A stretch of 33,541 nt of DNA from Candidatus Gastranaerophilales bacterium (lineage in GTDB: Bacteria; Cyanobacteriota; Vampirovibrionia; Gastranaerophilales; Gastranaerophilaceae). Positions 4,551 through 32,862 of this stretch are shown piece after piece (position 1 is the stretch's first letter; each line of letters begins with the position of its first letter). Made by a program: the position numbers and the translations under genes. The stretch lies in the NCBI GenBank assembly GCA_944323325.1, contig CALUSF010000007.1, positions 1 through 33,541 on the forward strand, read 5' to 3'. The notes beneath the pieces are model-generated. The model was given only the letters and a program-made list of their open reading frames with translations, had not been told where the DNA came from and did not search any database.

Positions 4551-5678
4551 TTATATTAAGTTCAAAGCTATTGAAGGCATTTGGTTAGCCGTTGCTAACA
4601 ATGTCGCCGTTGACTGCTGCAGAATCTGATATTTTATGTAGTTGGAAGATTCTGTTGCTACATCGGCATCCTTAATTGTTGAATTTGCTTCAACCAGATT
4701 TTCTCTCTGAACATCCGTTGACTCAATTGCAGAATCCAATCTGTTCATATAAGCACCGATTTTTGTGCTTCTAAGAGAAATGTTATCAATAGCATTATCA
4801 ATTTGGTCAATAAATTCACGTGCTGAATTGTCATTTCTGTATATCGCCGCACACATTTGTTCTATTGATAAAGCTCCGCCGTTAATTGTTGCACTTGTGC
4901 CGCCCGCATATGTAATATCGCCGTTTTCTGCCAATGCTGCAGCCAATGCGGACTTATAATATGCATTCTGTATATATTGCACATTGCCATTTGCATCTAA
5001 AACAGGCTGTCCGTTTGCATCTAAAATACGTGCCTGATAAATAAATCCATTTGCTTCATCTTCAGTTGTTTTCGCCGTCAAGTCCATAAATCCTTGCGGA
5101 TTTCCGTCAGCACCAGCTATACCGGCAGAACCGAACCCGAAGATAACCGTAGATTCAGCACTTGCAAACAGGAATGCATCCATTTTGATAACGCACCTTG
5201 CATCCGAATACAAACCTACCTGCAGATTAATGTCTGTTGTCCGTGAACCATCCAATAGGTAAGTATCGTTAAAATCCGTAATCTGGCACAAACGGTTAAT
5301 TTCATCCATTCTCTGTACAACTTCGGTTGCGATTGCGTCTAATGAAGCTGAACCGTAAGTTCCGTTTGCTGCCTGCATCGTTAAGTCACGAATTCTTTGA
5401 AGGTAATCGTTAATAATATCCAAAATACCTTCCTGGGTTGTTAACATATCCAACCCCATTTGAGCGTTAGTCTCAATAATATCGTAACCGTTGATTTTAG
5501 CTTCCATACCGGCAGACACTGCATAACCGGCTGCGTCATCAGCTGCTGAGTTTATCCGGAAACCGGTAGATAATCTCTCCATGGCTGTGTTCATTCCCTT
5601 AGTTGCATCTCTAAGGTAAGATTGACAGGTTAATGACGCTAAGTTTGTGTTAATTGTAATCGTTGATGTCGCTGTCAT
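4551..5678 (-). CDS. fliC: Flagellin, filament subunit
   Basis: Structural subunit of the flagellar filament, exported through the flagellar type III system. It is 375 residues long with the classical conserved ends: ERLSTGFRINSAADDAAGYA at about 34-53, the D1 helix LQRIRDLTMQAANGTYG at about 93-109, and a C-terminal coiled coil ending SIALNLI. The central variable part is short (about 170-290). The ATG is preceded by AAAGGAA and a perfect sigma28 promoter lies about 46 bases upstream, so it is a late flagellar gene. Unusually for a flagellin it contains four cysteines (about residues 18, 131, 162 and 276). The Arg and Leu of the QRxRxL segment used in TLR5 recognition of enteric flagellins are kept. 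It is monocistronic, with its own terminator. Confidence 0.97.
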   Translation of the reverse strand: MTATSTITINTNLASLTCQSYLRDATKGMNTAMERLSTGFRINSAADDAAGYAVSAGMEAKINGYDIIETNAQMGLDMLTTQEGILDIINDYLQRIRDLTMQAANGTYGSASLDAIATEVVQRMDEINRLCQITDFNDTYLLDGSRTTDINLQVGLYSDARCVIKMDAFLFASAESTVIFGFGSAGIAGADGNPQGFMDLTAKTTEDEANGFIYQARILDANGQPVLDANGNVQYIQNAYYKSALAAALAENGDITYAGGTSATINGGALSIEQMCAAIYRNDNSAREFIDQIDNAIDNISLRSTKIGAYMNRLDSAIESTDVQRENLVEANSTIKDADVATESSNYIKYQILQQSTATLLATANQMPSIALNLI

Positions 5679-5723: not shown

Positions 5724-5750
5724 TTATCGGCAATAAAATAAAGAACTTTA
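5724..5750 (-). promoter_or_regulatory. Sigma28 (FliA) promoter of flagellin
   Basis: On the minus strand, TAAA (5747-5750), a 15-base spacer (5732-5746) and GCCGATAA (5724-5731). This is an exact match to the FliA consensus TAAA-N15-GCCGATAA, placed directly upstream of flagellin. Confidence 0.93.
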
Positions 5751-8644: not shown

Positions 8645-8674
8645 CAAAAAGCCATACGAAAAATCGTATGGCTT
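8645..8674 (-). terminator. Rho-independent terminator after the NPF protein gene
   Basis: A perfect 9-bp stem GCCATACGA/TCGTATGGC (8651-8659 with 8664-8672) with a 4-base loop, extended by A-T pairs. Read on the minus strand it is followed by TTTTTG. It lies 34 bases past the stop of the 80-residue gene and before the GH13 start. Confidence 0.85.
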
Positions 8675-8706: not shown

Positions 8707-8949
8707 CTATACCTCGATAAACAGCCTTCTTCCCACAATATTAGGCTGATTATTATAATATCCCGCAAAATACCCTCCGGGAACGGGTTTATTTTGTCCG
8801 TAATTTGCGAACGGATTACTCGTAACAAATGGATTACCGGTCGGCTGTGCAAACGGATTGGAAGTTGCACGCGCCGAAACGATACCGCCTGTTTGTACGG
8901 TAGAATTAGATGTTAAAACTTTTGATAAAATATTTACGATTCCTGCCAT
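8707..8949 (-). CDS. Small NPF-repeat protein under a sigma28-type promoter, unknown function
   Basis: An 80-residue protein not recognised as any described flagellar component. A short hydrophobic start (MAGIVNILSKVL) is followed by a Ser/Thr/Gln-rich stretch with three Asn-Pro-Phe motifs (31-33, 39-41 and 45-47, each within SNPFA, GNPFV or SNPFA). A Gly/Tyr/Asn-rich segment and a basic-hydrophobic tail (GRRLFIEV) complete it. There is no signal peptide and no cysteine. AAAGGT lies before the ATG, a sigma28-type promoter lies about 55 bases upstream and a clean terminator lies downstream, so it is a complete single-gene unit. Its promoter and position beside hook genes suggest a late flagellar role (for example a secreted accessory, cap or junction factor, or a chaperone), but that is inference only. 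Confidence 0.8.
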   Translation of the reverse strand: MAGIVNILSKVLTSNSTVQTGGIVSARATSNPFAQPTGNPFVTSNPFANYGQNKPVPGGYFAGYYNNQPNIVGRRLFIEV

Positions 8950-9004
8950 ATCGGTTTACCTTTCTATATGGAGTTTAATAACTTTTGACAAGAAGTCAAT
9001 ATAT

Positions 9005-9031
9005 TTAACGGCAATTATTCTCTAAACTTTA
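9005..9031 (-). promoter_or_regulatory. Sigma28-type promoter of the NPF protein gene
   Basis: On the minus strand, TAAA (9028-9031), exactly 15 bases (9013-9027), then GCCGTTAA (9005-9012), 7 of 8 to the FliA -10 element. Spacing is identical to the flagellin promoter in this window. A small inverted repeat, TTGAC/GTCAA at 8985-8999, lies in the leader. Confidence 0.8.
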
Positions 9032-9169: not shown

Positions 9170-10006
9170 CTATTGCGTAGCCATTTCCATAGCCGATTGC
9201 AGCAAGTCTTTATTAGATTTAATAAGTGCATTTACAAGTTCCATCTGAACTTTTGCCTGTTGATAATCCGCCATGTTATTTTTAAAATCCGTATTTGCCT
9301 GTTCTAATAATCCTGAACGAATTTCGCCGCGGCCGACAACCGGCTTACCGGATTCGGGTGTTTCAACATAAACACCGTCCTTTACTTCATACAAGCCGTT
9401 TGGATTATGGAAGTTTGCAGTTGCTATTTTATATAAAGGTACTGAACGGTTACCGCCGTCGGCCTTTCCGTATATTGTTCCGTCATTTTTAATTTCATAC
9501 TCGTCATACTTTCCTAAAAATTTACCGTTATTCGGATCAATCCATAGTTTTATATTAGTAGTCGGAATACTCAACGCTCCGCCTTTTAACGCCGTATCCT
9601 GGTACAAATCGGCACTGATGGATTTCGTACCTGACATTATTTCACCTTTATCGTTAAGAATATACCCTTGAACAGTAGCACCGTTTGCTGCTCGGTATAC
9701 ACCTTCTCCGTCAAATGTAAATTCACCCAGACGAGTATAAGAAACACTTCCTTCAGGAGATCTTAAGACAAAGTATCCGGTTCCTTCAAAAAACAAGTTC
9801 TCATTAGATGTCCCGGGGGTAGATTTTCCTTGTCCGAGGTTCTTAATATTGTTATCAATAACGGCTCCGCCAAGAAATGTTTTGAACGTAACTTTATTTT
9901 CTCTGAAACCCGGTGTATAGGCGTTTGTTAAGTTATCCGCCAATACGTCCATCCAGAGGGTAGTCGCTTTTTGAGTGTTAATTGCGGTTGTGTAAATGTC
10001 ATTCAT
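9170..10006 (-). CDS. Flagellar hook-basal body protein, FlgE/FlgF/FlgG family
   Basis: Axial flagellar protein of 278 residues, the size of the rod proteins FlgF and FlgG rather than a hook FlgE. It has the family N-terminus (DVLADNLTNAYTPGFRENKV, about 20-39), the middle motif GTGYFVLRSPEGSVSYTRLGEFTFD and a C-terminal helix (about 235-275, MADYQQAKVQMELVNALIKS) of the kind that packs with the N-terminal helix in the rod or hook. Its start overlaps the FliK-like stop by 8 bases, with AAGGG as ribosome site, so translation is coupled. It is last in the minus-strand FliJ-FliK operon and ends before a strong terminator. Whether it is FlgF, FlgG or a divergent second hook protein cannot be settled by reading. 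Confidence 0.88.
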   Translation of the reverse strand: MNDIYTTAINTQKATTLWMDVLADNLTNAYTPGFRENKVTFKTFLGGAVIDNNIKNLGQGKSTPGTSNENLFFEGTGYFVLRSPEGSVSYTRLGEFTFDGEGVYRAANGATVQGYILNDKGEIMSGTKSISADLYQDTALKGGALSIPTTNIKLWIDPNNGKFLGKYDEYEIKNDGTIYGKADGGNRSVPLYKIATANFHNPNGLYEVKDGVYVETPESGKPVVGRGEIRSGLLEQANTDFKNNMADYQQAKVQMELVNALIKSNKDLLQSAMEMATQ

Positions 10007-11219
10007 CTTTACGTCCCTTCTTTTGGTTATCTTTTTCGTCTTGTTTTTGTTTACGTTGATTTAATTCATCGTACTCAATATTGCTTTCATCAAATTTTTG
10101 TCTGAGAAGCGGAAGGTTTTCTTTAAGGTACGCTTCCGCAACTTGTGAACTTGGAAGGAAATCCGCAGAGATTTTTCCTTCCCTGCCTACTTTTATAATG
10201 ACAGAAATGTTATTGTCAAAATCTATTCTTACAGGCTGGTTATCTTTCATTGATTTAGCAATTAAATCGGCTAGAGTCTGGGAAACTTTTGCTGATTGTA
10301 TATTCTTTGCATTTACTTCTGCAGCACCTTTTTCAACAAGATTGACAAAGAAATCCACATCGGATTTATCCATTATTACATTGTCATATTTAACAACGGT
10401 TTCAACGGTTATATTGGTCTTTGTATCAACTCTTTTTACACCTTCCGCATTAATAACCGTTTTCGTATCACTCTTTATTTGTTTTTCATCTTCTTGTTGA
10501 TTTTGTTCGGAGAGCATCATATTTCTGTTTGCAATTGCAATATTTTCATTCATTGTAGAAAGAATTTCACGCTCTTCTTTTAAGTCCGCCTCATTAATGC
10601 TTAATTTCATTTCCGCTTTTTCATTATTCATAAAATTGCTAAACGGCTGCTCACCTGTATTAAAATTCATGTTCAGATTCATTTGCGGAGTAAGCTGCTG
10701 TTCTTTTACGTCCTGAATGTTCATATCATTATTAATCAAAGTATTTTCCTCTTTATTATTTATTGGCGGTTTAGTCGGAATAAAGTTTTCATCTTTTTTA
10801 AAATCATTGCCAGATTCTGCCTGATTTTCATTAGGATTTAACTTGTTATTTATTTCATTGACCATATTTTGGAGCCCGTCGTAAATACTTTCCAAACCTT
10901 TGTCTTCATTATCTTCTTTTTTTTCAGAATCAGAAGACTTGTCATTTAAATTTTTATCCGACTCCTTATTTTCATCAGCCTGCTCAGCTTTTTCTGTTTT
11001 CAAATCGTCTTTTTCTTCAACCGTATTATCAGCTTTATCATCATTTGAAGCACTTTCTTCAACTAATGATTCTTCTGCTTCTTCAGTTTCACTCTTTTTC
11101 AAACTCTTTAACTCTTCTGCAAATTTTGCAGATGATTCGTCAGTTTGTACAGCAGACGATGCCCTTGTCGTACTTACAGGCGTTGATGATGTGATTTGTG
11201 ATTTTGCTTCAATATTCAT
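9999..11219 (-). CDS. fliK: FliK-like flagellar hook-length control protein (first copy)
   Basis: 406 residues. The first 300 are disordered, Glu/Lys/Asp/Asn-rich and low in complexity (about 45-115 strongly acidic), as in FliK molecular rulers. The C-terminal region about 310-385 has the FliK substrate-switch fold pattern: VRIDFDNNISVIIKVGREGK, then FLPSSQVAEAYLKENLPLLR and a final strand. The usual LxPExLGxV core is less well kept than in the second FliK at 15400-16776. It begins one base after the FliJ-like stop and overlaps the next gene by 8 bases. The tail is highly basic and charged (QKQDEKDNQKKGRKDE). Function is inferred from domain pattern and context. Confidence 0.75.
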   Translation of the reverse strand: MNIEAKSQITSSTPVSTTRASSAVQTDESSAKFAEELKSLKKSETEEAEESLVEESASNDDKADNTVEEKDDLKTEKAEQADENKESDKNLNDKSSDSEKKEDNEDKGLESIYDGLQNMVNEINNKLNPNENQAESGNDFKKDENFIPTKPPINNKEENTLINNDMNIQDVKEQQLTPQMNLNMNFNTGEQPFSNFMNNEKAEMKLSINEADLKEEREILSTMNENIAIANRNMMLSEQNQQEDEKQIKSDTKTVINAEGVKRVDTKTNITVETVVKYDNVIMDKSDVDFFVNLVEKGAAEVNAKNIQSAKVSQTLADLIAKSMKDNQPVRIDFDNNISVIIKVGREGKISADFLPSSQVAEAYLKENLPLLRQKFDESNIEYDELNQRKQKQDEKDNQKKGRKDE

Positions 11220-11220
11220 T

Positions 11221-11703
11221 TTATTCCGTCTCTATTCGTTTTAACTGTGCTTCTAACTCTTGTTCCTCGGCTTCTTCTCTGGAGTGAATAAAAAACCGCT
11301 GTACGCCTATTTCAGAAAATTGTTTTAATTCTATTGCCTTTTGTTCTTCCAGGTATGCCTCTTTTTGTTTTTCCTTATGTTTTTCTAAAACTTTTACCGC
11401 TTGTTCCAGCTTAACCAGTTTACGCTGTTCCTCTTCTAAAATTGCCTGTAAACGCTGCCGTTCTTGTTCTAAGGCATCCGCCTTATCCCATAAGTGGTGG
11501 AGATAATTGTCATAATATTCCATCATTCTGAAATCAGCGGTTCTTTTATTCTTGATTGTTTGTTGAATTTCTGCTTCATTTTGCCGGATTTTTTCTTCTG
11601 CTATATATACATCCTGCTGCGCTTTTTGTACAACTAACAGTTGTTCTTCTTTTTTTCGGATACGAAAATCAAGTATTTTTTGCAGTCTGTATACAAAGGG
11701 CAT
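11221..11703 (-). CDS. fliJ: FliJ-like flagellar export coiled-coil protein (first copy)
   Basis: 160 residues, almost entirely a charged coiled coil, beginning with the FliJ signature F-x-YRLQKILDFR at residues 3-14. FliJ is the central stalk of the flagellar type III ATPase complex and cycles export chaperones. The ATG is supported because the signature starts at once after it; the ribosome site (GTGAGA) is weak. It heads the operon FliJ-FliK-hook protein. A second FliJ of similar length at 14954-15397 heads the mirror-image cassette on the other strand; the two share the N-terminal signature but little else. Confidence 0.82.
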   Translation of the reverse strand: MPFVYRLQKILDFRIRKKEEQLLVVQKAQQDVYIAEEKIRQNEAEIQQTIKNKRTADFRMMEYYDNYLHHLWDKADALEQERQRLQAILEEEQRKLVKLEQAVKVLEKHKEKQKEAYLEEQKAIELKQFSEIGVQRFFIHSREEAEEQELEAQLKRIETE

Positions 11704-11762: not shown

Positions 11763-11791
11763 ATGATTAATTATTTTTTCAAAATTGTCAA
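11763..11791 (-). promoter_or_regulatory. Possible sigma70 promoter of the minus-strand flagellar cassette
   Basis: On the minus strand a perfect TTGACA (11786-11791), 17 bases, then AATCAT (11763-11768, 4 of 6). The start would be about 53 bases before the FliJ-like ATG. No sigma28 element was found here. Confidence 0.4.
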
Positions 11792-11854: not shown

Positions 11855-11878
11855 ATTAAAGAAAGTGTGTGTGAGATT

Positions 11879-12298
11879 ATGATTCAAGCTGTGAATGCCT
11901 TTACTCCTAAGGTATTATTTAAGGGGCATGAAAATATTAATCCCGTAAATCGAAAAATGGAAAGACGCATTGCCGTTATTAATTCTGCCGGTATTTCCGG
12001 TGTAATAGGAGCCGTTACTGCAATTATCACAAGGAATTATACTTCTTCTTGGAAAAACGCAAGTTTATTAGGTCTTGGTGCCGGTTTAATCACAATGGTT
12101 GTAGTCTGTCCAAAACTCCTTTACCGTGCGGGAGTTAGAGCTTATACAAAGGAAAAAGAGCTGGAAGTATTTACAAAAGAAAAAGAAGTTCAAAAAAAAC
12201 TGCTTGCGGATGTTGATGAAGCCATAAATACTCATGGAGACGACTTACAAGACAAAATTGAAAATTATGCCAAAGCAACTTGCCACAAAGGCTGTTAG
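11879..12298 (+). CDS. Two-helix membrane protein with N-terminal FKG motif, unknown function
   Basis: 139 residues from the ATG at 11879, chosen because GTGAG lies just before it; an in-frame GTG at 11867 would add four residues. An N-terminal segment with Phe-Lys-Gly at 14-16 precedes a basic stretch (NRKMERR). Two membrane helices follow (about RIAVINSAGISGVIGAVTAI and SLLGLGAGLITMVVVCPKLL), then a soluble charged helix of about 50 residues. The FKG context resembles the N-terminus of the AAA+ protein at 31281-32777. Not a recognised family. Its stop overlaps the stop of the convergent gene by 3 bases, and no terminator is visible between them. Confidence 0.75.
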   Translation: MIQAVNAFTPKVLFKGHENINPVNRKMERRIAVINSAGISGVIGAVTAIITRNYTSSWKNASLLGLGAGLITMVVVCPKLLYRAGVRAYTKEKELEVFTKEKEVQKKLLADVDEAINTHGDDLQDKIENYAKATCHKGC

Positions 12299-31280: not shown

Positions 31281-32777
31281 TTAATTATTATAGCCGATTT
31301 TTCTTCTTGTATTAGATGTTTTATCTTTCAGAAAATCATCGAGAGCCTTATCAAAATCTTCCTGCATAATTTTAAACTGCCTTATATCTTGCGGAATAAA
31401 TGTCCCGTCTTCCATTTTCTGAAAAATTCCCGCTCTTATATAGCCGTTATTATGAGCTTCATTTATTATATGTTTTGTATCGGCGCCGGTTGCACCAACG
31501 CTCAATAATTTATTAAGCATTTCATCTTTTTTAATATTCTCATCTAACGGTTTATTTTTAGTCTGGATATCAAAAATTTCTCTGAGTGCATCCAAATCCG
31601 GCGGAGCAACTTCATAATGTTTTCCGAATCTGCCTGAACGAATAATGGCCTTATCTAATGCCTTATAATTATTGGTTGCACCGACAACAAACACATTTTC
31701 ACCCTCATTATCAATATCTGTCATAAGAGTTAAAATCTGGTTAACGACTTTATTTCCGTACTCATCTTTACTGTCGCGGCTTCTTGCAACGGCATCAAAC
31801 TCATCAAGAAAAATTATCGTCGGCTGGTTTTCTTTTGCTTCCGCAAAAAGTCTTCGCCAATTTGCTTCCGATTCACCAACCCATTTTGATTCTAAATCCA
31901 ATCCGTTAAGCGATATAAAATTTGCACCGGCTTCATTCGCCAAAGCTCTTGCTATATGGGTCTTACCGGTTCCGGGCAAACCGTACAAAATAAAACCGTG
32001 ATTAAGCTCCATATTTTCATACGCATCCGGATACTTGAGCGGATATATAATATCTTTTTTTAAGGAATCTTTAAGCTCTTTATACCCTCCAACCTGAGCA
32101 AACGTTACCGGAGAAGATGTTTTGCGCGTTCCCTGTATAAGATTGGAAATAGTTTTTTTATTCAAGCTGGAAAGTTTTTGACTGACTTCTTTATCATAAT
32201 CAAACGCTCTGGCAAAGTTTTTCCTGAACATACTTAAATCAGTCTTGGATTTATCCTTAATTTTTAACGGCACGCCGTTTACCATAAGTATATCATCCTG
32301 AAGAACATAAAAACTTTCGTGCGGTTTTAAAGAATAAGTTTTGTTATTTGAAATTAACCCTACTTCAAAATCATTTAAATTTATAACCTCTCTATCTCCG
32401 AGCGGATTTTTTATAAAACCCAGATTCCCCCCGAGATTATCATCCTCTATAAAAAAGCTGCGTTTAATTGCATTTTTTACCAAATCCGAATCTTTGTACA
32501 TACCTTTGGCGCATTCGTTTAAATTTCTGCCTACAAGAATTAAATCTCCGAGTTTAAAATTTTGAAACAGGGATGCTAAGCGGTCCTCAAGAGGAATTTT
32601 TTTCACCAAATCCAAAGAAGTGTTCGGAATACCCTTAAAATTTACAGCCGCATAATTATGATTTTTATCCATAAGACGCAAATCCGTACTTTGAGAGACT
32701 GTCGTATTGCACTTTGTTTTTTCTGCTTTTGGGATGTAGGTCCGGTAGTTCCGGGTAGTTACGGGATTGATTCTCAT
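31281..32777 (-). CDS. CDC48/FtsH-like AAA+ ATPase with novel N-terminal domain
   Basis: 498 residues from ATG 32777, preferred because a perfect AGGAGG lies 8 bases before it; a longer reading to 32849 would run through the leader hairpin. Residues 225-420 form a single classic AAA domain: FAQVGGYKELKDSLKKDI, Walker A GLPGTGKT (K272), pore loop KWVGESE, Walker B IIFLDEFDA (D325, E326), sensor ATNN and Arg fingers near R380 and R383. The N-terminal 220 residues contain an FKG motif (47-49) and a beta-rich segment (about 75-175) of unknown fold. It has no membrane helix and no protease domain, so it is probably a protein unfoldase or remodeler. The client is unknown. Confidence 0.9.
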   Translation of the reverse strand: MRINPVTTRNYRTYIPKAEKTKCNTTVSQSTDLRLMDKNHNYAAVNFKGIPNTSLDLVKKIPLEDRLASLFQNFKLGDLILVGRNLNECAKGMYKDSDLVKNAIKRSFFIEDDNLGGNLGFIKNPLGDREVINLNDFEVGLISNNKTYSLKPHESFYVLQDDILMVNGVPLKIKDKSKTDLSMFRKNFARAFDYDKEVSQKLSSLNKKTISNLIQGTRKTSSPVTFAQVGGYKELKDSLKKDIIYPLKYPDAYENMELNHGFILYGLPGTGKTHIARALANEAGANFISLNGLDLESKWVGESEANWRRLFAEAKENQPTIIFLDEFDAVARSRDSKDEYGNKVVNQILTLMTDIDNEGENVFVVGATNNYKALDKAIIRSGRFGKHYEVAPPDLDALREIFDIQTKNKPLDENIKKDEMLNKLLSVGATGADTKHIINEAHNNGYIRAGIFQKMEDGTFIPQDIRQFKIMQEDFDKALDDFLKDKTSNTRRKIGYNN

Positions 32778-32807
32778 TGTGTTTTCCTCCTGATATGTAT
32801 ACAAAAC

Positions 32808-32846
32808 AGGCTTGTAATTCTTTTTCTTTTCTGAATTTACAAGCCT
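32808..32846 (-). promoter_or_regulatory. Hairpin in the AAA+ gene leader, possible attenuator or terminator
   Basis: AGGCTTGTAATTC (32808-32820) and GAATTTACAAGCCT (32833-32846) form a 13-bp stem with one bulged base and a 12-base loop. On the minus strand it is followed by GTTTTGT, a weak T tract, and then by the AGGAGG of the AAA+ gene 19-24 bases further. It could end the short upstream transcript, attenuate the AAA+ message, or cap it. Confidence 0.55.
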
Positions 32847-32862
32847 CAAGCTTTAATTATTT

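Follow-up and report, generated by a model that had tools for sequence, protein, structure and literature searches.

Organization of the NPF locus

The window, by which we mean the whole stretch of 33,541 nucleotides of Candidatus Gastranaerophilales DNA that was analysed, carries on its minus strand a short gene with regulatory signals of its own:

8649-8674, minus strand: intrinsic terminator of the NPF gene (folding energy)
8707-8949, minus strand: NPF protein gene, 80 amino acids (homologues, pN/pS, structure model)
8959-8965, minus strand: ribosome binding site AGAAAGG of the NPF gene (from the sequence; kept in the genus)
8974-8999, minus strand: operator-like element at NPF, TTGACTTCTTGTCAAAAGTTATTAAA (orthologues and window scan, 20.6 bits)
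9005-9031, minus strand: sigma28-type promoter of NPF, TAAAGTTT-N11-GCCGTTAA (consensus match, genus-wide conservation)

The protein is termed NPF here for its three Asn-Pro-Phe motifs, which occupy residues 31-33, 39-41 and 45-47 of the ORF translation. The ORF is a real gene, because pN/pS among 18 genomes of the window's genus is 0.26 for the whole protein and falls to 0.046 in the C-terminal 31 residues. The C-terminus is thus shown to be under extreme purifying selection. The protein consists of a short N-terminal helix, a disordered linker with the NPF motifs, and the near-invariant C-terminus YGQNKPVPGGYFAGYYNNQPNIVGRRLFIEV. In the AlphaFold model (pLDDT 53, too low for a fold search), residues 3-12 form a helix and residues 62-71 possibly a hairpin, the remainder being disordered. 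NPF had no matches in Pfam, NCBIfam, PADLOC and the PDB sequences, and a search of PHROGs gave a single weak match (E 0.027) to a family of unknown function. No viral relatives were found by sequence search.

The terminator (11 pairs and a T-tract, -17.3 kcal/mol, z -7.6) and the promoter belong to the NPF gene alone. The sequence-only reading of this DNA had described the 80-residue protein with its three motifs, its terminator and a sigma28-type promoter, and all of these are borne out by the present analysis.

The sigma28-type promoter

The NPF promoter sequence, TAAAGTTTAGAGAATAATTGCCGTTAA, agrees with the Escherichia coli sigma28 consensus in 15 of 16 positions. The flagellin promoter of the window (5724-5750) also has one mismatch, so that to call it perfect was slightly generous. 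The strict sigma28 pattern occurs once in the 33.5-kb window, and in none of 100 shuffles. Among 50 distinct NPF upstream regions of the genus, 44 have a box with at least 12 of 16 matches, a score that the shuffled control reaches in 0.1% of cases, and 41 have a spacing of 11. On the genome scale, TAAAGTT-N12-GCCG is found 34 times in the own genome, where the reversed control has 5 occurrences; three further members of the genus have 18-29, against control counts of 1-5. Judged by this sequence conservation, the NPF promoter of the window's genus is shown to have become sigma28-type.

The sigma28 box at NPF is limited to a few related genera, and because most other genera have a TATAAT -10 at that place, it is best regarded as a clade-level state. 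The FliA/WhiG sigma factor itself is widespread, with matches to TIGR02479 over the cut-off in 276 of 288 genomes of the family, the one of the own genome at E 2e-68. The sigma28 promoter class is kept in genus g34 even by genomes without flagellin (12 sites versus 0 and 7 versus 2 in the control), and in flagellin-less G034 such promoters lie upstream of NPF and of the ASQAR-type genes described below. Since both the sigma factor and the promoter class persist in genomes without flagellin, sigma28 does not imply motility in this lineage. As for the flagellin genes examined in the genus (L076-L105), the sigma28 box is clear only at the LTCQ-type, as at 4551-5678 of the window, and most other paralogues are without it.

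Distribution of NPF

The family sample comprised 288 genomes, from records titled Candidatus Gastranaerophilales, many of rumen or gut origin. NPF was matched in 278 of these, in three of them weakly, so that 275 have a clear homologue (E below 1e-10). The gene is present mostly once per genome, and in a single copy in nearly all. NPF is hence near-universal in the family, and its presence is not tied to flagellin: clear homologues are found in 117 of the 119 flagellin-bearing genomes and in 158 of the 169 flagellin-less ones. Further families of the order carry NPF too (E 1e-24 to 1e-32). More distant relatives, from other families of the class, end in YGVNRPLK..MFLGYRDNKALYGGSRLFILY. No match was found outside the class in the phylum sample. 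According to these sequence searches, NPF is confined to the non-photosynthetic cyanobacterial class that contains the Gastranaerophilales.

In the class sample, NPF was never found without an FlhA, which is encoded in each of the 202 NPF-positive genomes, and none of the 54 FlhA-less genomes has NPF (Fisher p 6e-36; the co-occurrence is confounded by phylogeny). The converse does not hold throughout, since no convincing NPF homologue was found in the FlhA-positive families f7, f8 and f9 of this sample. The NPF gene lies near flgE2 in about half of the 18 genomes of the genus and elsewhere in other genera. As its neighbours vary from genus to genus, and the genes of the export machine do not adjoin it outside the window's genus, gene adjacency is weak evidence, and a shared gene neighbourhood was rejected as an argument for the role of NPF.

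An operator-like element shared with export genes

The sequence-only reading did not mention the conserved element at 8974-8999, which lies 5 nt downstream of the NPF -10. Its consensus, TTGACTT-N11-TCATTAAA, has rigid spacing and is conserved family-wide: of 70 NPF loci from various genera, most have a recognisable copy, and NPF upstream regions in other families of the order show it as well. The element is an imperfect inverted repeat (TTGAC...ATTAA), and its place just downstream of the -10 suggests a putative repressor operator.

A position matrix built from NPF upstream regions outside the window's genus was used to scan the 33.5-kb window. It picked out two strong sites only, at NPF (20.6 bits) and at the fliJ2-fliK2-flgE2 operon (18.6 bits), against maxima of 12.3 and 12.6 bits in the reversed control. 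The second site and its operon are as follows:

9170-10006, minus strand: flgE2, hook/rod-like, second system (76% identical orthologue in flagellin-less G034)
9999-11219, minus strand: fliK2, FliK-like, second system (orthologue in G034)
11221-11703, minus strand: fliJ2, FliJ-like, second system (64% identical orthologue in flagellin-less G034)
11766-11791, minus strand: second copy of the operator-like element, TTGACAATTTTGAAAAAATAATTAAT (upstream of fliJ2, 18.6 bits)

A search of 12 genomes for the exact pattern TGACT-N13-CATTAAA gave 32 sites, versus 5 in the reversed control. Its targets include NPF, fliJ2 (in G032 and in flagellin-less G014), flgF2 (in the own genome and in flagellin-less G007), and genes for a protein family that starts with MGMAASQAR. 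With a matrix built without g34, 15 sites of at least 20 bits were found in 1.67 Mb of the flagellin-less genome G034, versus one in the control. As these 1.67 Mb are a part of the genome, the regulon listed for it is incomplete. The 15 sites include those before the genes for NPF, an ASQAR protein and an SLT lytic transglycosylase, and also for HD-GYP-like and EF-hand-like proteins and small orphans. Weaker sites (17.9-19.0 bits) precede fliE-fliF-fliH-flhA2 and more ASQAR genes. Since this regulon includes genes without an evident tie to secretion, such as those for HD-GYP, EF-hand and MBL-fold-like proteins, it is wider than the second export system.

In genera g34 and g40, TGTAAAGTTTTGTAAA and near variants upstream of NPF (L028, L029, L032) match the cyanobacterial HLR1 consensus on the other strand, as defined for RpaB (PMC11633204). 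A reading as an RpaB site suits these two genera and may serve as a lead, but it leaves the GCCG and the g1 spacing unaccounted for.

A second flagellar-type export system

The hook-like gene flgE2 is the next gene upstream of NPF in the window. The fliJ2, fliK2 and flgE2 genes of the window all have orthologues in the 1.67 Mb of flagellin-less G034. In the same 1.67 Mb, no orthologues of the window's fliJ1, fliK1, flgD and flagellin were found, flgE1 gave only a cross-match to flgE2, and rod genes were not found. It is this split that, by orthology, assigns the hook-like gene next to NPF to a second system rather than to the motility flagellum.

FlhA profile scores also fall into two kinds, around 860 bits in most flagellin-bearing and around 730 bits in flagellin-less genomes, and flagellin-bearing G033, G064 and G092 have both. 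The second kind, FlhA2, is 84-95% identical among five genomes compared, is only 37-40% identical to flagellar FlhA, and separates from it with full support; by these sequence comparisons it is a separate, highly conserved lineage. The genes around flhA2 in flagellin-less genomes are fliE, which passes the curated cut-off, fliF, fliH and an unknown gene. The ORF after flhA2 in G033 was read as fliI, from its sequence rather than from a profile. In flagellin-less G007, flgF, flgG, flgB and flgC have the operator-like element upstream. The gene set of the second system thus comprises FlhA2, FliE/F/H/I, the rod proteins FlgB/C/F/G and FliJ2/FliK2/FlgE2, and its gene content shows that the predicted system persists in flagellin-less genomes. 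Loci of this system were seen at L317:5081-11067, L322:7839-10111, L320:7859-15016 and 9170-11703 of the window.

A literature search did not find a description of a second flagellar-type export system, which therefore appears to be undescribed. Partial flagellar gene sets of Gastranaerophilales have been judged unable to build a functional flagellum (PMC4040986). Our data suggest that part of these sets is instead a separate, strongly conserved secretion system with its own regulon.

Two further protein groups were observed. The MGMAASQAR proteins (300-640 amino acids; L164:1572-3008, L277:1578-3023 and several in G034) are conserved at both termini and variable in between, a flagellin-like layout, and are found behind both promoter classes. 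They have no match in Pfam and are candidates for export or for a filament. The unrelated proteins encoded at 11867-12298 (plus strand, VLFKGHENIN) and 31281-32849 (minus strand, VNFKGIPN) of the window have in common a short xFKG motif near the N-terminus, possibly a lineage-specific sorting tag.

Possible roles of NPF

We give even chances that NPF is among the late proteins of the second, flagellum-derived system, as an accessory or as an exported one. The link rests on the element that is common to NPF and second-system genes, and on the joint presence and absence of NPF and FlhA. NPF could, for example, be an assembly factor, a plug or a substrate. It would be made together with the second machine under a repressor-like regulator; its N-terminal helix and NPF linker would be flexible, and its C-terminal block would provide a docking site. 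The mixed regulon, the position of NPF away from the machine's genes outside the genus, and the three families with FlhA but without convincing NPF all speak against such a role. More tentatively, and at somewhat less than an even chance, NPF may be a dedicated component or export product of a flagellin-less second machine in nearly all Gastranaerophilaceae, in which case the FliA-type sigma factor would work for the machine and for the ASQAR-type proteins as its late products, and not for motility.

It is possible, if rather unlikely, that NPF has a general and probably essential function, in the cell envelope or in housekeeping, and that a regulator is all it has in common with the second system. 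The gene is near-universal and free-standing, in a place that varies between genera, and the mixed regulon is the main argument for a co-regulated but unrelated protein. Such a protein would not be expected to go missing from every FlhA-less genome of the class sample, nor to be singled out, with just the second-system operon, by the window scan.

We consider it improbable that NPF is a non-homologous analogue of FlgM, that is an anti-sigma factor which acts on the FliA/WhiG-type sigma factor and is itself small, disordered and exported. Its size, disorder and conserved C-terminus, the sigma28 promoter in the genus, and the near-universal co-occurrence with this sigma factor and the export apparatus would all fit, and the role seems unfilled, in that no FlgM-like motif was found in the 1.67 Mb of G034. 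However, NPF matches no FlgM profile in Pfam or NCBIfam, the weak model places a possible hairpin rather than helices near the C-terminus, and most genera have an NPF promoter of another type.

The proposal of the sequence-only reading, by which NPF would be a late protein of the motility flagellum with a structural or motor role, is similarly improbable, despite the promoter in the genus and the flagellar genes nearby. The proposal expected NPF in flagellated genomes only, and the promoter always to be kept with it. Neither expectation agrees with the data, because homologues abound in flagellin-less genomes and most genera lack the sigma28 box; moreover, the hook-like gene that adjoins NPF is one of the second system. 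What survives of the proposal is the link to flagellar-type machinery, though not to the flagellum proper. What is new here is accordingly the second system and the connection of NPF with it, and not a new flagellar protein. Finally, NPF triplets are ligands of EH domains and many of the records come from rumen or gut, but the suggested significance for eukaryotic hosts finds no support and is most improbable, as the motif count varies from one to three among homologues with only the middle motif nearly constant; many genera of the family have just one, and one is kept in the distant homologues from other families of the class.

Most of the Gastranaerophilales, which are relatives of cyanobacteria from the gut, are uncultured. 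As a near-universal member of the regulon, NPF can serve as a concrete marker in the search for what the second machine secretes. The findings are also a warning that motility should not be read from sigma28 or flagellar genes in this group.

Comparison with known systems

NPF resembles the sigma28 (FliA) dependent class-3 flagellar genes in its TAAAGTTT-N11-GCCGATAA promoter, its own terminator and the genome-wide promoter class to which it belongs. Unlike these genes, it is present without flagellin and has a TATAAT -10 in most genera, and genomes that lack flagellin retain both the sigma factor and the promoter class. FlgM is a disordered protein of about 80-100 amino acids that is linked to the FliA-type sigma factor and to the export system. 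NPF is likewise small, disordered and tied to such a sigma factor and export system, but it is without profile similarity to FlgM, and its C-terminal block is weakly predicted as a hairpin.

Buchnera aphidicola is reported to keep flagellar basal bodies (PMC8109811), and the non-flagellar type III secretion system to be derived from the flagellum (PMC3459982). As in these two cases, ring, export-gate and rod-type genes occur in the second system apart from a motility filament. In contrast to both, it is a second, paralogous system that in many genera coexists with a flagellin-bearing one, that is near-universal in the family, and that has its own FliK, FliJ and FlgE and an element in common with NPF.
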